NCBI RefSeq assembly: GCF_018408705.1
Contig: NZ_AP023420.1
Coordinates: 1,054,001 to 1,118,000, forward strand
Direction: 5' to 3'
DNA from: Pusillibacter faecalis
Lineage (GTDB): Bacteria; Bacillota; Clostridia; Oscillospirales; Oscillospiraceae
DNA: 64,000 nt
Part shown: piece after piece, positions 22,545 to 30,089 of the stretch
Layout: every line of letters starts with the position of its first letter
Position numbering within the stretch: the stretch's first letter is position 1
Position numbers and translations under genes: made by a program
Notes under the pieces: generated by a model
The model's input: the letters and a program-made list of their open reading frames with translations, nothing else
Database searches by the model: none
Told to the model about the DNA's origin: nothing

Positions 22545-25500
22545 TTACACCTTGTTACCAGCCTGAACGGTGAGAGTGTTGGTACCAGCCACAACCGTGT
22601 AGCTGCCCTCAACCTCAACGTCAGTGCCAGTGGTCACATCGGTGCCCTGGCCAGCAATGGTGATCGTAACACCGTTGCCAGAGACACCAGGAACAGTCAC
22701 AACCACGGCCACGGTGGAGCCAACGTCCAGCCATTCGGACTCAATGGCAGCCTTGTTTTTGCCGTTGTAGGTCGCGGTGGCATTGCCAGTCAGGTTGGTG
22801 GTGGTAGCCGTATCCAGAGAATTCTCGGCGACAGTCACCTTCGCCTGGACCTTCACGCCAGTCACAACGATTTCGGTGTTGGCATTCACAGTCTCCTGGA
22901 TCGCAACAGTCTGAGTAGCGCTGGCAGTCGCAGCATGTGTCATGCTCTTCGGCGTGCCGTTCACGGTGTACTCCACAACCACCTGGTTGGTGGAAGCCAC
23001 CAGAGCGGTACCAGTCTGTACAGTCAGATTCACAGTGGCTTGAGCACCAGAATTGACAGACTTGGAAGTCTCACTGCCGGAGAAGTAGGCTGCATCTACG
23101 CCCTTGCCGTTTACAGCACCAGACTTCACAGAGGAGGTAACGGTCACAGCGGCGTTATTGTAGTTCAGTTTGACTTCGGGCTGAGTGCCAGCGGCAGTCA
23201 GCTTCACGGTGTAAGCCTGGTCAACGGTCAGGTTGCTCTGAGCCAGCGCAGCAGGCCTCACAGCAGTGATATTAGCGCTGCTATTGTCCTGAATATCATA
23301 CTTGGAAGAACCGGCGGGCTGCTTGACCGTGAAGGTGAACTCCGTATCCGCAACATTCTTCACGGTCTCAGTCTTGTTGGCGTACTCGGCAGAGCCAGAG
23401 TACTTCACGTACCACTCGGTCACATTCTCGGTAGCAGCCTGCACAGTGATCTTGTTGCCAACGATCACAGTGCCAGTCAGCTCGGTAGCCTTGTAGTCCA
23501 TGACATAGACCTTGGAGGTCTTGCCGTCCAGGTTGGTGGTCTTGACCACACCCAGGTCGTTGATGTCAACGTACTTGCCGCCGCCGACAGCGTCGCTGAC
23601 ATACACGCCGGGCAGGCTGACCTTGGAAGCGCCGGGAGTCAGGTCGGTGAACTGCAGGTACAGCTTGCCGTTCTTGGCGTCATAGCGACCAGCGCCCTTC
23701 TCAGTGCCAGTGAAGTCCACAAACAGATCGGTGGTGCTGGGCAGGGTGGTGTCAGTGCCGTTGTCAGTGAAGTCACCGCCCTGGCTGCCGGTGTTCAGCG
23801 GGGTGGCGGAGTCAAACACGACCCACTGAGCAAGCCCATTGCTGTTCAGAACAGCATAGATGTTGCCAGCGTACTGGGTGCCAGCGGTGTTGGTGTCCGC
23901 GTCAGCCAGGTGGCTGATGGCAGAGCCAACAGAGGTGAACTCGGTCTTGACGTCAGACTTCTTGTTCTCGTCCTGGATCACAACCGCCTTGGCGTCAGAG
24001 GCGAAGGCCAGACCCACATCCTCGCGGTTGGCGGTGATGTACATGGTGCGGCCCTGCAGGTTCAGGGTGCTGGTGTTCGCAGTCAGGCCGACCATCTGAT
24101 AGACGTCCTCGCCGTCGATCGCGACCTTCATGTTGGTGTAGACATCCTCAGCCTTCACAGCCTTGATGGAGGTGACATAGTCGCCGTCGAAGCGCAGCTC
24201 CATAACGGTGCCCTTGGTCAGAGGCGTGATGGTGCTGCTGTACTTGCTCTTGGCGGTCAGGGTCTGGACCTGACCATTCAGGACGGCCTCGAAGGTCCAA
24301 TAATAGGTGTCGTCCTTCTTCTCCTCGCTCTTGGCGCCGGAGAGGATGTAAGCCAGGTTCTGCGCGGAGCCGGTGGCCTCGCCGATCACGACGGCACCGA
24401 TCACATAGTAATCGCTGTCATACACGGTGAAGACCTGGCCCAGAGCCACAGCCTCAGCGTCCTTGTCGATCTCGATGTCCACGTTCTGCACGCCGGTGTA
24501 CACGCCGTCCACGTCGGTAATCACCTTTGCAGAACTGCCGGCGCTCACAGCATCCAGATCCACAGTGACAAACACGGTGGCGTCCTCGCCGTAAACGCGG
24601 TTGTCATTCTTGCTGTCGCCGACGATGCTCAGGTTGTCGGTGCGGATGACGTCTTCCTTCGCAGTGTCGGTGTAAGCGGTGGTGGTCATGCGGACGGCGG
24701 GCTTCAGGGTGTAGGTGCCGTCAGCGTCCACCGTGTAGGTGTACCACTGGTTCAGCTTCTCATTGCCGCCGGACCATTTGTTGAAGGACATCGCGGCATG
24801 ATCGTCCGCGGTGGGAGCATTGTTGCTGGCATCGGTCCGAGCCTTCTCAATGTTGGTGTTGGTGTCCTTCACATCAACGGTAATGGTCTTCATGGTGCCG
24901 TCCAGGAAGATGGCGGAAGCCTTGGCAGTGCTGGTGCCGATGTGGCTGCCGTCCAGGTCATAGCCGGGGATGAAGACATAGTTCTTGGTGCCCTCGAACA
25001 GCTCGATGCCCAGGAAGTAGCCGTTGGCGTCCACATACACGGTGTAGGTGTTGTCGGTCAGCAGGGACTCGTTGTACTCGTTCAGAACGTCCTTGTCATA
25101 GAACGCCTTCACGTTGGCCTTGTACTCCTCGCCGCCGATGGTGACCTTGGAGACCTGGTCCTTGTTGGTCTCGTCGTTCTTGCTGGTGGAGAACTTGGTG
25201 ACAGTGCTGTCCTCCAGGACCTCCACGGCGGACACGGCCTTGACCTCGCCCAGCGTGTCATTGTCCTTGTAGGAGATGTTCACCTGGTAGTAGGTGTCGT
25301 TCTTCACGTCCACAACGTTGGCAACGTCCTCGACGTCCACGTTGTAGTTGCGGCCATCAGCATCCTTCACATATACATTGAGGGGAGCGTACTCCTTGCT
25401 CTCGCTGTAATCAGAAGTAGCCTTGGCCAGATAGCTGTTGACGGACACGATGGTGATCATGCCATCATCGGAATCCAGGTAGACCTCGGTCACAACGCCG

Positions 25501-26519
25501 TCGCCGGTGCCGGTCAGGTCGTTGTTGTTGGAGCGGACCAGATCGGTCTTCTTGATGGAGTTCTCCTTGCCGTCCACATAGGACTCCAGCTTGTTCTTGT
25601 CGATCACGCCGGACTTGAGCAGATCATAGACCGTCTTGCCGGTCACGCCGGTGGTGTAGCTCTCCACCAGCAGGGTGTGATCAACATAGGTGCCAATATC
25701 GGTCTTGTCATAGACCCAGTTGTTGGCAGGACGCATGAAATCGTCGCTGTCCTTGCGGCACTCCAGCTTGGGGAAGAACTCCTCGGCAAACTGCACGAAG
25801 CCGTCGTTCTTGATGTTGCCGTCCTCGTTGATGCCCTCGCTCCAGGTCACAGGCTTGGAGCTGCCCTGGGAGATGGTCACGTCCACGCCATTGACGTTGG
25901 TGGTGATCTTCTGATCGTAGTCCACCATCGTGGCCTGCAGGGTGTTGAAGGCATACAGGGCAGCTTCCTCACGGGTGACGAAGTCCACACCGTTGAACTC
26001 GTCGGTCAGGCCGGCGTTCAGGCCGATGCCGATGGCCTGCTTGGCAACGTTGATGGACCAGTTGCCGCCGGTGTAGCCCTCATAGGTGGCGTCATAGCCC
26101 AGGGCGCCCAGCAGCATCTTCATGAAGGCATAGCCGGTCAGGGTGCCAGCGGGACGGAAGGTGCCGTCCGCGTAGCCGGAGATGATGCCCTCCTTGGCGC
26201 AGTAGGCGATGTAGCCGGAGAAGGTGTTGCTGGTGGGCACATCCTTGTAGGGAGCGGTGTCCGCGTGCAGCTCCGCTGCGGTGGTGGGGCCCAGGATCAG
26301 GTTGCAGATGATCTTGGCCGCAGCCCCACGGCTCAAATTGTCCGTGGGAGCGAAGCTGCCGTCCTCACGGCCATCCACAACCCCGATTTCGGAGATCACG
26401 GCGACAGCTTCATCATAGGTGATGTCTTTGTCGTCCTTGAACTCCTTGGCGCCGGCGTTGATCGTGACGAGAGACATCATCATGGTCAGCGCCAGCACCA
26501 GAGAAAGGAATTTCTTCAT
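22545..26519 (-). CDS. S-layer protein with N-terminal SLH domains
   Basis: The 1324-residue secreted protein has a signal peptide at residues 1-24 (MKKFLSLVLALTMMMSLVTINAGA). Three SLH motifs cover about 30-200: ISEIGVVDGREDGSFAPTDNLSRGAAAKI, GYIAYCAKEGIISGYADGTFRPAGTLTGY, and KQAIGIGLNAGLTDEFNGVDFVTREEA. SLH domains anchor proteins to pyruvylated wall polymers. The rest is beta-rich, Thr/Val/Asp/Lys-rich, with Ig-like C-terminal repeats. A very strong ribosome site (AGAAGGAGG) and uniform codon choice suggest high expression, so it is likely the main surface-layer protein. It lies immediately downstream of the degenerate recombinase-winged-helix regulator. Confidence 0.85.
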   Translation of the reverse strand: MKKFLSLVLALTMMMSLVTINAGAKEFKDDKDITYDEAVAVISEIGVVDGREDGSFAPTDNLSRGAAAKIICNLILGPTTAAELHADTAPYKDVPTSNTFSGYIAYCAKEGIISGYADGTFRPAGTLTGYAFMKMLLGALGYDATYEGYTGGNWSINVAKQAIGIGLNAGLTDEFNGVDFVTREEAALYAFNTLQATMVDYDQKITTNVNGVDVTISQGSSKPVTWSEGINEDGNIKNDGFVQFAEEFFPKLECRKDSDDFMRPANNWVYDKTDIGTYVDHTLLVESYTTGVTGKTVYDLLKSGVIDKNKLESYVDGKENSIKKTDLVRSNNNDLTGTGDGVVTEVYLDSDDGMITIVSVNSYLAKATSDYSESKEYAPLNVYVKDADGRNYNVDVEDVANVVDVKNDTYYQVNISYKDNDTLGEVKAVSAVEVLEDSTVTKFSTSKNDETNKDQVSKVTIGGEEYKANVKAFYDKDVLNEYNESLLTDNTYTVYVDANGYFLGIELFEGTKNYVFIPGYDLDGSHIGTSTAKASAIFLDGTMKTITVDVKDTNTNIEKARTDASNNAPTADDHAAMSFNKWSGGNEKLNQWYTYTVDADGTYTLKPAVRMTTTAYTDTAKEDVIRTDNLSIVGDSKNDNRVYGEDATVFVTVDLDAVSAGSSAKVITDVDGVYTGVQNVDIEIDKDAEAVALGQVFTVYDSDYYVIGAVVIGEATGSAQNLAYILSGAKSEEKKDDTYYWTFEAVLNGQVQTLTAKSKYSSTITPLTKGTVMELRFDGDYVTSIKAVKAEDVYTNMKVAIDGEDVYQMVGLTANTSTLNLQGRTMYITANREDVGLAFASDAKAVVIQDENKKSDVKTEFTSVGSAISHLADADTNTAGTQYAGNIYAVLNSNGLAQWVVFDSATPLNTGSQGGDFTDNGTDTTLPSTTDLFVDFTGTEKGAGRYDAKNGKLYLQFTDLTPGASKVSLPGVYVSDAVGGGKYVDINDLGVVKTTNLDGKTSKVYVMDYKATELTGTVIVGNKITVQAATENVTEWYVKYSGSAEYANKTETVKNVADTEFTFTVKQPAGSSKYDIQDNSSANITAVRPAALAQSNLTVDQAYTVKLTAAGTQPEVKLNYNNAAVTVTSSVKSGAVNGKGVDAAYFSGSETSKSVNSGAQATVNLTVQTGTALVASTNQVVVEYTVNGTPKSMTHAATASATQTVAIQETVNANTEIVVTGVKVQAKVTVAENSLDTATTTNLTGNATATYNGKNKAAIESEWLDVGSTVAVVVTVPGVSGNGVTITIAGQGTDVTTGTDVEVEGSYTVVAGTNTLTVQAGNKV

Positions 26520-26640: not shown

Positions 26641-26669
26641 ACTGTACCATCCGATTTTTGGGATGTAAA
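26641..26669 (-). promoter_or_regulatory. Possible S-layer promoter
   Basis: On the minus strand TTTACA (26664-26669) and TACAGT (26641-26646) are 17 bp apart, about 120 bases before the S-layer start. The match is fair, not strong. The 26520-26779 gap holds nothing else I can identify besides the leader hairpin. Confidence 0.35.
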
Positions 26670-26779
26670 TGCTTTTGCCAGAAGTGTTACAGAAGCGAAA
26701 AACGGGTGCAAATGACGCCCTTTTCCTGTAACAATCTTGTGATTTTTACTCCGCCGGTTTCCAGCTGCCGGGGCGGCTC

Positions 26780-28048
26780 TCAGGCGTCCCGGAGCGTGTA
26801 GCGGTACTTCTCCCGGCTGAGTTTCCCCTCTTCTACCAGGTGCTGGAGAATCACCGTGCACTGCCTTGGTTCAATGCGCAGCAGCCGGGCGATATCCTGT
26901 CGGTAGGCCGCGCCCTCTTCCTGTAAATACTCCCGGATGACCTGGTACTGCCGCTCCGGTGGAACCACCGCCGCAGGCGGATAGTACCGCGTGCCCACCC
27001 GTACCAGGCGCCCTTTGTCCGTCAGCGCTGTAAGACGGCGGTAGGCGGTAGGCTTGGAAACATGCAGCAGCTCTGTCAGTGCATTTCGGGTGATAAAGCC
27101 ATGCTGGCGGACATACTGCAAAATCCTGGTCTCGCCGCCGGCGCGGATCGCGTAGTCCTGACGCAGGTCCCGGACGGTGAGATCGTCAATCCCAGCCCGG
27201 ACCAGCGCTGCCCGTACTACGCGGGAAAGGCGGTCCGGACGCATGGGCAGACGGGAGCGTGGCGCGCGGAGGACGGTTCCCCCGCTCTCTCCCGACTCCA
27301 TCCGCAGTCTTTCCAAAAATTGTGCCAGGCCATCATTCATAGGGACTGTTTTTCCGGGGATGGGCTCTAAAAGGCGCCGCTGAACGTCCACCTGGTCCCA
27401 GGTGAGCGCCGTGATTTCCTCCAGCGTCAGCCCAGCCTGCCAGGTAAGCTGCAGGGCAGTTCCCGCCGCCGAGGTCCCCTCGCTGTGCAGGAGCCGGGAG
27501 AGGAGAATTTCATTGACGTCCGGCGCTCTCTCCGGCAGAACCTTTGTGGACACCCGCTTTTCGGGCAAAAACTCCGCAAAGTGCTGCCCCAACGCCACAG
27601 CCGCGACGCCGGTGATGCGGGAGACATACTGCCAGTCATGCCGCTGCAGCTGACGGATGATGAAATCGTGCCGCAGATCGATGAGACGGACCTCCCTCTG
27701 TCCCTCCTCATCCAGCGCCCTGCGCACGATATGCGAGACGGGCTGCGGCTGCATGGGCTTATGCAGCCGATCCGAGAGCAGCACATAGTTGCTTCCCCAG
27801 TCCAGCCGCTCGCTCATGCGGGCCAGGTATTCCTCCAGTTCTTGGCAAAGCGGGATACTTCGGTCAGGCAGCTCTATTTCCTGATTCAAAAAATTGACAG
27901 CATCCCAGCGCAGAGACACAATCTCATTACGAAGGAGGCCCGCCATCCAGGCAAGACGCACCGCCATTCCCACGGCGTCATAGGGGTGCTTTTCCAAAAT
28001 CCGCCGGATGGCGGCCTCATCGGGGCGATGTACGGTATAAGGCTCCAT
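26780..28048 (-). CDS. Tandem degenerate tyrosine-recombinase domains fused to two winged helices
   Basis: The protein has 422 residues. Residues about 5-165 match a tyrosine-recombinase catalytic core: AVRLAWMAGLLRNEIVSLRWDAVNF and RLIDLRHDFIIRQL. Residues about 175-320 repeat it: ALQLTWQAGLTLEEITALTWDQVDV and LTVRDLRQDYAIRAG. The H of the HxxR motif is Ile in copy 1 and Arg in copy 2. The nucleophile position of copy 1 reads GQHFAEF (Phe for Tyr), and copy 2 lacks the final segment. The C-terminus holds two winged helices (RILQYVRQHGFITRNALTELLHVSKPTAYRR; QVIREYLQEEGAAYRQDIARLLRI). It is most likely a DNA-binding regulator derived from a recombinase, acting on the adjacent S-layer gene or switch. 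Confidence 0.7.
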   Translation of the reverse strand: MEPYTVHRPDEAAIRRILEKHPYDAVGMAVRLAWMAGLLRNEIVSLRWDAVNFLNQEIELPDRSIPLCQELEEYLARMSERLDWGSNYVLLSDRLHKPMQPQPVSHIVRRALDEEGQREVRLIDLRHDFIIRQLQRHDWQYVSRITGVAAVALGQHFAEFLPEKRVSTKVLPERAPDVNEILLSRLLHSEGTSAAGTALQLTWQAGLTLEEITALTWDQVDVQRRLLEPIPGKTVPMNDGLAQFLERLRMESGESGGTVLRAPRSRLPMRPDRLSRVVRAALVRAGIDDLTVRDLRQDYAIRAGGETRILQYVRQHGFITRNALTELLHVSKPTAYRRLTALTDKGRLVRVGTRYYPPAAVVPPERQYQVIREYLQEEGAAYRQDIARLLRIEPRQCTVILQHLVEEGKLSREKYRYTLRDA

Positions 28049-28092
28049 GTCAACCCTCCCACGAAAATCACAGTTATGTTACTGATTTTTTC

Positions 28093-28428
28093 CTATCTCC
28101 CGTTCAGCACAGCCGCCTCTCCGGGCGGAGGCGCAGCGGTGGCTCCCTCCAGCGTCCAGTCGCCCCACTCTCCCACGATGGAACCCCGAATGGCATCCTG
28201 GCCGCAGAGCCGAAGGAGCATGTCGCAGTCCTCCTCCAGGATTTTGGTCTTCAGCCGCATGGAAGCAGCATACCGGTTTTTCCGAAGCATTTTCCCCTGA
28301 AAATAGCTCTGACTCCCATCCAGGTTCACGCTGCCGGAGACATCCGTCCCGTCGACCTGTAGTGTCAGCTCCCCCTCGACCTCCTGGAACTGGCCTTTGA
28401 GTGTAATATGATATCGCAATATCCGCAT
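28093..28428 (-). CDS. Unknown small beta-rich protein
   Basis: The 111-residue protein starts at 28428 behind AAGGAGA. It is beta-rich (YHITLKGQFQEVEGELTLQVDGTDVSGSVNLDG), has no signal peptide or membrane span, and ends in a Pro/Ala-rich tail. It is 44 bases upstream of the recombinase-like regulator and probably in the same operon. It is the first gene that the inverted promoter of the adjacent switch would reach. The family is not recognised. Confidence 0.55.
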   Translation of the reverse strand: MRILRYHITLKGQFQEVEGELTLQVDGTDVSGSVNLDGSQSYFQGKMLRKNRYAASMRLKTKILEEDCDMLLRLCGQDAIRGSIVGEWGDWTLEGATAAPPPGEAAVLNGR

Positions 28429-28485
28429 CCGTGTTCTCCTTGCCTTCCTAGGTCCGCCGTGTTTTCCCCGCCGCGAACATAGATA

Positions 28486-28499
28486 AAATTGTTATTTTG
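28486..28499 (+). repeat. Left arm of the 14-bp inverted repeat (IRL)
   Basis: AAATTGTTATTTTG is an exact reverse complement of 28735-28748. Internally AAAT-TGTT-ATTT is a dyad around an asymmetric 4-nt core, as expected for a tyrosine-recombinase crossover site. It is AT-rich within a GC-rich region. Confidence 0.65.
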
Positions 28500-28597
28500 T
28501 TGATAGAGCCGTTCCGTTCCGAGGAGAACAGCCGTGTGAATGCGAACTAAAACACGCCGGATTCCCCCTGGCGGCAGAAATCAGGCGTGAAAAAGCG

Positions 28598-28632
28598 GAG
28601 CCGAAAGTCAGACGCTAATCGGCTCGGATTTT
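28598..28632 (-). terminator. Terminator of the tyrosine recombinase, inside the invertible segment
   Basis: GAGCCGA (28598-28604) and TCGGCTC (28619-28625) form the stem, with a T-run on either side (GATTTTTT on the plus strand; CGCTTTTTC on the minus strand). It would end recombinase transcripts now, and after inversion would lie upstream of the flipped promoter. Confidence 0.6.
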
Positions 28633-28657
28633 TTGCGCCCTAAAACGGGCGGCTATC

Positions 28658-28686
28658 TTGTATTTTGCTGTGGGAGCTGTTATAAT
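28658..28686 (+). promoter_or_regulatory. Consensus promoter inside the invertible segment
   Basis: TTGTAT (28658-28663), a 17-bp spacer and TATAAT (28681-28686). In the sequenced orientation it points into the 3' end of the convergent recombinase gene and has no sense gene to serve. Flipped about the 14-bp repeats it would occupy about 28548-28576 on the minus strand, some 120 bases from the start of the 28428-26780 operon. Confidence 0.65.
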
Positions 28687-28734
28687 TTAACAAAATATGT
28701 AGGGAGCAGTGTTGTTTTGTTCCTTTACGATTGT

Positions 28735-28748
28735 CAAAATAACAATTT
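28735..28748 (-). repeat. Right arm of the 14-bp inverted repeat (IRR)
   Basis: CAAAATAACAATTT is the exact reverse complement of 28486-28499 and ends four bases before the recombinase stop codon. Spacing between the arms is 235 bp. Confidence 0.65.
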
Positions 28749-28752
28749 CGTC

Positions 28753-29598
28753 CTACGATACAAGGCCGAGCTTTTCCATCTGCCGCAAATGCTCCACCCC
28801 CGTCGTCACCAGATAAATGCGGGTGGTTTCCATGGAGCTGTGCCCCAGTACGTCAGCCAGACGGGCGATGTCCCGGCATGCCCGATAAAAGGTCCGTGCA
28901 AACAAGTGGCGGAGATTATGGGGATATACCTTGGCAGGGCATACCCCGCTCAGTGTGCACAGCTGCTTCATCTCAGCCCAGATCTGTTTTCTGGACATCC
29001 TTCTTCCGCTTCTGGTGATAAAAATTTCACCAGAAGCGATTTTATGTTTCCGGGCATACTTCAAGAGCTTCCGGCAAAGCTTGTCCGGCAGCAAAATGAC
29101 CCGGATCTTCCCCTTCAGCGCAATCTCCGCGCGGCCAACCCTGGCGGTCTCCACCGTGATATAGGGTACTTCGCTCACCCGGATTCCCGTGCCGCAGACC
29201 GTCTCCATCAACAGGGCGAGCCGCTCTTTTCCATGGTCTCTGGCTGTACCCACCAGATGCGTGTACTCTGCCCGCGTCAGCTCCCTGGACTGATCCCGGA
29301 AGGCCCGGCGCTGAATTCTTAAAAATTTCACCCGGCAGTCGTCCCATCCCAGGAATCCAAACAGTCCATTGAGTGCTGCTACCATGGAGTTCACCGTTAC
29401 TGGCGCATGGCTCGTCGCGAGCAGCTCCGTCTTCCACTCTGCGGCCCGTTCCTGGGTGACGGCTCTGCCGTCCAGCCAGCGAAGAAACGCCCGCAGGTCC
29501 CGCTGGTATTTCTCCACGGTGCCGGGTGCGCGCTCCTCTGCCAGCAGATGGCCCCGAAATGCCTCAATCTGCGCGAGGGTCAGGTTGTGTTCGTCCAT
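28753..29598 (-). CDS. Tyrosine recombinase, probable DNA invertase
   Basis: The protein has 281 residues. The N-terminal SAM-like arm-binding domain covers about residues 1-90 (TLAQIEAFRGHLLAEERAPGTVEKYQRDLRAFLRWL). The catalytic domain has all key residues: R in GTGIRVSEVPYIT, K in LKGKIRVILLP, HxxR in YPHNLRHLFAR, H in LGHSSMETT and the nucleophile Tyr in RIYLVTTG. The size matches XerC/D-type invertases and integrases. ATG 29598 has GGGAGGA upstream, and the open frame beyond it (to 30015) has no ribosome site and poor protein character. The 14-bp inverted repeat next to its 3' end makes site-specific inversion the best guess. It is too distant from the phage cassette to be an obvious phage integrase. 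Confidence 0.85.
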   Translation of the reverse strand: MDEHNLTLAQIEAFRGHLLAEERAPGTVEKYQRDLRAFLRWLDGRAVTQERAAEWKTELLATSHAPVTVNSMVAALNGLFGFLGWDDCRVKFLRIQRRAFRDQSRELTRAEYTHLVGTARDHGKERLALLMETVCGTGIRVSEVPYITVETARVGRAEIALKGKIRVILLPDKLCRKLLKYARKHKIASGEIFITRSGRRMSRKQIWAEMKQLCTLSGVCPAKVYPHNLRHLFARTFYRACRDIARLADVLGHSSMETTRIYLVTTGVEHLRQMEKLGLVS

Positions 29599-30089
29599 TT
29601 CTTGATTCCTCCCAAACCTTATGGTATCTCTAGTCTTCCTGAATCCGCGGCCGCTATGTACATCGTCCTCTCCGCCTGCGGACATGACCGCGGGCGCAAA
29701 GCGGCGGACAAGCCTGCGGCGCCGGCAAAAGTGGGGTTGTCCGTTTCTTGATGGAGTGAGCGCATTTTTAAAGGCCTTCTGACCTGCGCAGCTATGTGCA
29801 AGCCGGACCAGCGGTTCTCTCACACTCCCGGCAGCTGTGCGATTCGCGCATAGACAGCCGCCACACCGCATCCGGACCCCGCCGCCCCTCGCAAGGCATG
29901 TTCCAGCGCCGGGTTTTGTCGTTGATTGGTAACATGATAGCAAGGGCTCCGAAAAAAGCGCAAGGCTCCTTGATGAGATACCGGCAGGCTCCCATGACAG
30001 GTGGGGCTTGCTCATTTGCCGATCTTCCTATACAATAGAGATATTCCTGATGGATTCTTTGAATCTTTGCTTTATTTTAGGAGGGTACT
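29599..30089 (+). other. Intergenic stretch without a supportable gene
   Basis: About 490 bases between the recombinase start and the AIM24 start. Frames are open on both strands because of GC content, but none has a start signal and protein-like sequence. Only the AIM24 promoter at its right end can be named. Confidence 0.4.
30008..30036 (+). promoter_or_regulatory. Promoter of the AIM24 operon
   Basis: TTGCTC (30008-30013) and TACAAT (30031-30036) are separated by 17 bp, about 50 bases before the start at 30090. Confidence 0.5.

Follow-up and report, generated by a model that had tools for sequence, protein, structure and literature searches.

Invertible promoters beside tyrosine recombinase genes are well known from the fim switch of E. 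coli, in which the OFF promoter points toward a recombinase gene. S-layers are phase variable in Bacteroides, C. fetus, and L. acidophilus. Phase variation of S-layers has also been treated in PMC12548429. In C. difficile, RecV operates switches at cwpV (PMC2784873) and at the flagellar and Cdi loci (PMC5903667). More generally, Clostridia carry invertons near tyrosine recombinases, and their flipping was seen in reads in the hCom2 study (PMC11892184), where 32 of the 33 invertons of inverton group 139 with invertase group 35 lie in Clostridia.

Here, we describe a locus of this type in the window, by which we mean the whole stretch of 64,000 nt of Pusillibacter faecalis DNA that was analysed. 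It resembles fim in having a putative invertible promoter beside a tyrosine recombinase gene, with the promoter of the OFF-like state directed toward that gene. As in the phase-variable S-layers, expression of an S-layer is the likely variable output; unlike in those systems, the invertible promoter would drive a dedicated regulator and not the S-layer gene itself. With the RecV switches it shares a tyrosine recombinase, short inverted repeats, a surface protein as the likely output, and a host in Clostridia, whereas RecV acts on more than one locus and each recombinase described here adjoins its own pair of sites.

The switch is most likely of the same kind as the published Clostridia invertons (PMC11892184). 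We liken it to groups 139 and 35 of that study by host class and recombinase type, that is, a host in Clostridia and inverted repeats near a tyrosine-type recombinase/integrase. That study observed flipping in Intestinimonas butyriciproducens, where members of the present recombinase family, with their repeats, also occur (L069, L141). The published inverton of this species has arms of 14 and an interior of 227, whereas L069 and L141, both in strain An565, have interiors of 262 and 253 and do not match it.

The hCom2 passages on groups 139 and 35 name neither a dead-recombinase partner nor an S-layer regulator. Our searches of open-access PMC, at the level of titles and the starts of abstracts, likewise gave no S-layer regulator circuit of this design and no dead-recombinase partners, and nothing on an S-layer in the genus named for one of the two orthologous loci (L047). 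The target circuit and the recombinase-like genes just beyond the switch look new. The locus offers a compact and testable circuit (recombinase, flipping promoter, dead-integrase regulator, operator, and S-layer gene) in little-studied gut Clostridia, and surface variation in these bacteria may bear on phage and host contact.

The repeats, the segment and the recombinase

The elements of the putative switch are as follows.

28483..28500, no strand: target-proximal recombination site, with the left arm (28486-28499) inside
28500..28734, no strand: putative invertible segment, the 235 nt enclosed by the two arms of 14 bp
28590..28636, no strand: two-way terminator hairpin in the middle of the segment, stem GAGCCGA/TCGGCTC, flanked by an A tract and a T tract
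28658..28686, plus strand: extended -10 promoter, TTGTAT-17-(TGn)TATAAT, facing the recombinase (from sequence, top score in the segment, and family likeness)
28734..28751, no strand: recombinase-proximal recombination site, with the right arm (28735-28748) inside
28753..29601, minus strand: tyrosine recombinase of 281 aa, catalytic residues present, presumed invertase (Pfam)

The first-pass annotation of this DNA had proposed a perfect 14-bp inverted repeat around 235 bp, with its right arm four bases from the stop of an intact tyrosine recombinase, and all of this stands. The two arms are perfect and inverted, with 235 nt in between and the right one at that distance from the stop, and they exceed chance: none of 5000 dinucleotide shuffles of 28430-28760 equalled the repeat (five reached 12), and none of a further 386 stretches of 331 nt from the window contains such a repeat. 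The arm 14-mer has no further copy in the 3.4-Mb genome. Each arm forms the core of an 18-bp near-palindrome (ACAAAAT-N4-ATTTTGT; one mismatch in one site and two in the other), and beyond the central 14 bp the arms diverge.

The adjoining recombinase matches PF00589 (3.6e-22) and PF02899 and is catalytically complete: R140, K164, H227, R230, H253, and Y262, which we take to be its catalytic residues, are invariant in 10 aligned rows (itself included). Its start was placed by eye at the ATG at 29601, behind a ribosome-binding site, and the maximal ORF of 420 aa was rejected in favor of the 281 aa that follow from this start. Unlike fim, it falls far below the NCBIfam cut-offs for tyrosine-type DNA invertases (22.5 vs. 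222 and 21.2 vs. 221 bits). Nor does it reach the equivalog cut-offs for XerD (104.5 vs. 329.6) or XerC (97.7 vs. 335.15). We infer that this recombinase would bind both near-palindromic 18-bp sites and invert the 235-bp segment.

The segment had also been credited with a consensus promoter, a description that fits the perfect TATAAT and the spacer of 17 and fails for the -35 hexamer, TTGTAT, which matches the consensus at only three of six positions. It was because of this poor -35 that our strict promoter scan did not list 28658-28686. The element also has an extended -10 TG, and it ranks first in the segment under a home-made weighted score that rewards this feature and takes its weights from the general promoter consensus; segments of the family have a promoter of equal type at the equal place. 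An outward promoter therefore lies within the segment as far as sequence can tell, with a weak -35. The scanner's own alternatives, a weak promoter at 28731-28759 on the plus strand and a hairpin at 28636-28651, were not relied on.

The terminator that had been noted inside the segment is there as well. Because the hairpin has an A-tract before it and a T-tract after it, it looks like a terminator from either strand; its folding energy is modest on the plus strand (z -2.08) and unremarkable on the minus strand (z -0.40). Here, a switch of the C. difficile cwpV type has to be considered, in which the promoter lies outside the segment and inversion makes or breaks a terminator. The segment does contain a terminator, and transcription of the recombinase gene would run into it. 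In cwpV, however, the promoter is outside and the mechanism is one of termination, whereas the best promoter of the window's locus, going by its letters only, is a good one inside the segment; moreover, since the hairpin looks like a terminator in both directions, inversion should not change termination. We consider a cwpV-like terminator switch highly improbable here.

Toward the operon on the other side, no promoter in the window's segment scores above 4.1 and the scan of 28380-28800 lists none on the minus strand, in agreement with the first-pass observation that no convincing minus-strand promoter serves this operon. For an invertible promoter the following would hold. As sequenced, the sole good promoter is directed at the recombinase gene, whose 3' end it would read in antisense, and the two-way terminator in the middle would shield the operon beyond, giving the OFF state. 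After inversion, the promoter would lie ~120 bp before the gene for a 111-aa protein and would transcribe it together with the gene for a 422-aa regulator, giving the ON state. That orientation sets transcription of the operon in this way is what we infer from the layout. The first-pass proposals, an invertible promoter whose present orientation is OFF-like and whose target is the minus-strand operon, are upheld, mainly by comparison with 95 non-duplicate loci.

Relatives of the recombinase and their segments

Gut MAGs and isolates contain many relatives of the recombinase; among the best 80 of at least 591 matches, most come from genomes named Oscillospiraceae or Lachnospiraceae. We examined 97 loci, each with at least 380 nt past the stop, which comprise part of the unnamed-genome matches, the named loci, and the window. 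An inverted repeat follows the recombinase in 80 of the 97, or in 78 of 95 once duplicates in the segment are dropped (L053 equals L004 and L090 equals L088). For the named set alone, a repeat of at least 11 nt was found in 59/72 loci as against 12/484 control windows from the same loci. The remaining 17 of the 95 yielded no repeat under the search used; they include search-window misses (L019 and L042 do have one) as well as imperfect or single arms. The search for the repeat leaves out L021-L030 (≤32% identity), unfetched matches, L238-L292, and, in one further set of loci, all but L141.

The 78 segments share more than their repeats. A two-way central terminator is present in 47 of them, compared with 1.1 after shuffling. 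The best promoter is typically of the extended -10 type and lies about one quarter along the segment when it faces the recombinase, or about three quarters along when it faces the next gene. At a score of at least 13, 45 of the 78 segments have a promoter, which faces the recombinase in 33 and the target in 12; none is directed inward, none is central, and no segment has both. Shuffled segments reach this score in 5.9 cases, spread across all classes. A promoter at score 13 is absent from 33 of the 78; at score 11, 64 segments have one (45 recombinase-facing, 16 target-facing, and 3 inward).

Both orientations are also seen when homologous segments are compared directly. L063 and L073, which lie in one MAG, have homologous segments in reversed orientation (82% over 157 nt), and so do L063 and L108 (72% over 133 nt) and L075 and L079 (72% over 139 nt). 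At E 1e-3, 22 segment match pairs are on the minus strand and 37 on the plus strand. Some of the reverse-strand matches are short, come from the shared hairpin (as for L004/L053, 21 nt), and were rejected as reversals, so that only long ones were counted.

A tree of the recombinases from 61 loci with an orientation label (45 OFF and 16 ON) shows 16 changes of orientation, the maximum that 16 ON rows allow. This is not below the figure for shuffled labels (mean 14.2), that is, orientation is not clustered. The tree is poorly resolved, with 7 of 58 inner branches starred, and the starred ones alone force only six changes.

In addition, 8 of the 80 named contigs break off no more than 275 nt from the recombinase stop, L125 immediately before it. 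L112 breaks off precisely where a site ends, and L051 one base earlier. On the 5' side, none of the 80 named contigs ends within 500 nt of the match. Mixed orientations would produce such contig ends in assembly. The window and its orthologues L047 and L048 are OFF-like in all three cases, and comparison of these three genomes reveals no flip at this locus.

Alternatively, the repeats might be mere operators through which the recombinase represses the promoter that faces it, while the segment stays as it is. This reading can draw on loci with three sites, one of which overlaps a -35-like hexamer (L032, by eye), and on the fact that inversion at this locus is unobserved. Against it, outward promoters occur at one end of the segment or the other and never at both, homologous segments occur reversed, and orientation is unclustered on the tree; we regard the operator-only reading as very improbable.

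Viral contigs bear on another reading, in which the recombinase would be the integrase of a mobile element, decayed or small, and the repeats its attachment sites, with no regulatory switch. The enzyme is a tyrosine recombinase and relatives are also found in viral contigs, which would suit such an element. However, the close viral-contig relatives too have a repeat pair beside the recombinase: among 21 of 80 loci scanned for the repeat, it is present in 11/11 with enough sequence and at least 47% identity (L223 and L224 look like copies) and in 0/9 at 31-35% identity. Moreover, the sites are inverted, and the ~250 nt that separate them contain a recurrent promoter and terminator. A mobile-element origin of the arrangement without a switch appears to us extremely improbable. 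The viral or prophage contigs with a recombinase and a repeat pair behind it are L214-L217, L219, L220, L222-L224, L226, and L228; L227, with 185 nt, has no repeat, and L213, L218, L221, and L225 end at the stop.

The locus is very probably a recombinase-operated invertible promoter, that is, an inverton. The first-pass view that its layout is that of phase-variable switches is borne out by the repeat in 78 of 95 relatives, the promoter at either end but never both, and the unclustered orientation. Putative switches of this kind, in both orientations, are found beside related recombinases in many gut Clostridia.

Some loci of the family are arranged differently. A third copy of the site lies ~34-65 nt from another in L011, L031, L032, L036, L037, L043, L083, L098, L099, L101, and L114, and therefore more than one segment could invert there, or a short piece could be lost. 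In L064, L126, and L059, the recombinase is followed by a single site, with the next gene within ~100 nt; the missing segment reflects either deletion or assembly collapse.

The genome of the window itself encodes three paralogues of the recombinase (62-66% identity). Each of these loci (L031, L032, and L033) has a repeat pair with a different central spacer, which could keep the switches from cross-reacting, and their switches are followed by large proteins with signal-peptide-like starts. The same genome has a lone exact site, ACAAAATTTTTATTTTGT, at G000:C2:232985-233002 (L297), which shares its core with the L033 inverton; it lies ~500 nt from a distant recombinase match, and no second site is listed nearby.

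The operon, its regulator and the S-layer gene

On the far side of the segment, the following features are relevant.

28093..28428, minus strand: protein of 111 aa, first gene of the putatively controlled operon (no Pfam/NCBIfam match at 1e-3)
28064..28082, no strand: candidate operator before the regulator gene (imperfect repeat pair I1)
26780..28048, minus strand: putative regulator of 422 aa, two integrase-like domains without catalytic residues plus winged helix-turn-helix domains (Pfam)
26728..26746, no strand: candidate operator before the SLH gene, inverted relative to the regulator copy (imperfect repeat pair I1)
26641..26669, minus strand: promoter-like element before the SLH gene, TTTACA-17-TACAGT (both hexamers fully or almost fully conserved in three species)
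22545..26519, minus strand: SLH-domain surface protein (S-layer type) of 1324 aa, probable final target (Pfam SLH PF00395, 7.5e-18)

The 422-aa protein matches PF00589 in two stretches (1.2e-13), and HTH_24 and other winged helices. Its assignment to the integrases is based on Pfam and a PDB profile match; comparison of its profile with that of the recombinase is weak (probability 0.3% with 3 rows and 35% with 18). In the alignment to the XerC-like 4a8e, which stops short of the Tyr, the first domain has Leu for the first catalytic Arg and Ile for the His of HxxR. The second, aligned to 5vfz (E 0.0064), has Thr for the first Arg in the window and no His at the aligned place. The protein thus lacks the Arg, HxxR, and Tyr of an active tyrosine recombinase. 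A structure predicted from 3 rows was of low quality (mean pLDDT 49, pTM 0.28) and was set aside.

The orthologous loci, in MAGs named Dysosmobacter (L047) and Oscillibacter (L048), share the recombinase, the sites, the segment, the 111-aa gene (61% in both), and the 422-aa gene (76 and 75%), and the SLH gene is also kept in both (the same loci as L185 and L186). The regulator is mainly a genus-level gene, present in 47 of 86 genomes of the genus and in 3 of 150 of a family sample, two of these being of the same genus. We fetched 32 non-duplicate regulator loci, 8 of them on contigs that end before 450 nt downstream; an SLH-like gene follows the regulator in 21 of the 24 with at least that much sequence and is absent in 3. 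The link between switch and regulator rests on three species because the recombinase and the 111-aa gene lie upstream of the regulator in only three of the fetched loci, namely the window and both orthologues (1.5 kb was examined in most loci). It follows that the switch was apparently added to a pre-existing regulator-SLH module.

The regulator and the SLH gene are further tied by a shared motif. Exact matches to AAATCACA-N4-TGTTAC number exactly two in the genome, both at this locus, and each of 22 further matches listed has two mismatches. The SLH copy is exact in L047 and L048, and the regulator copies there have one and three mismatches, respectively. Among the 32 regulator loci, GTAACA stands before the regulator in 26 (shuffled mean 1.4, maximum 5), TGTTAC stands after the regulator and before the SLH gene in 28 (shuffled 0.9, maximum 3), and the two occur in inverted arrangement in 24 (shuffled 0.05, maximum 1). 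The regulator would presumably bind this motif before its own gene and before the SLH gene and so raise or lower S-layer expression. We hold the step from regulator to SLH gene to be moderately probable. The account as a whole, from inverton through regulator and motif to S-layer expression, is one in which we have good confidence.

The operon had been said to lead to the S-layer gene. The link between the two more likely runs through the regulator and the motif than through read-through alone, since a conserved promoter-like element of its own lies before the SLH gene. Under simple read-through, the operon transcript would continue into the SLH gene, the switch would act in cis, and the regulator would have another role. 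A gap of 260 nt separates the stop of the regulator from the start of the SLH gene; both genes are on one strand, and the scan lists no minus-strand terminator in the gap. Against this, the promoter-like element and the motif are kept between them in three species, the half-site is present in most of the genus loci examined, and regulator-SLH pairs occur without the switch. We consider such read-through rather unlikely, and favor control through the regulator. The SLH gene may also be expressed whatever the state of the switch.

The genome has two paralogues of the 422-aa regulator (G000:C1:1674597-1675844 and 1717634-1718866; L181 and L182), each before another SLH-like gene and without a recombinase or 111-aa gene upstream.

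Genes beyond the switch in other loci

A recombinase-like gene starts within 1.3 kb after the active one in 25 of the 95 loci. The 23 that could be judged all lack both Tyr262 and H227; the other two, L052 (cut) and L126 (short), stop before the active site. In a quick tree, these 23 dead recombinases and L034 form one branch (support 100) apart from 33 active recombinases sampled from the 95 loci. Taken with the 422-aa protein, these genes point, tentatively, to a self-referential family in which the first gene behind the flipping promoter is often a dead relative of the recombinase, and in which such pseudo-recombinases might act as DNA-binding regulators, feeding back on the switch or relaying its state, here to the S-layer gene via a private operator. 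A dead-recombinase lineage tied to the switches of its active relatives would be a possible route from mobile-DNA enzymes to transcription regulators.

L034:4210-5034 (G000 C1, ~2048200) is the stand-alone dead recombinase of the genome, with neither the catalytic His nor the Tyr. By eye, it lies after a flagellin-like gene, and no repeat pair was found upstream.

Other clusters of genes beyond the switch encode AP2-like/zinc-ribbon proteins (14 sequences from 13 loci), DUF4379 proteins (8 sequences from 7 loci), and secreted proteins; Pfam was run on nine representatives, and the AP2 match is below Pfam's cut-off. AP2-like/zinc-ribbon genes were seen at L061, L063, L078, L086, L088, L095, L101, L106, L108, L110, L115, and L124, and DUF4379 treble-clef genes at L049, L058, L069, L079, L081, L089, and L098. 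Domains of both types also occur in homing nucleases.
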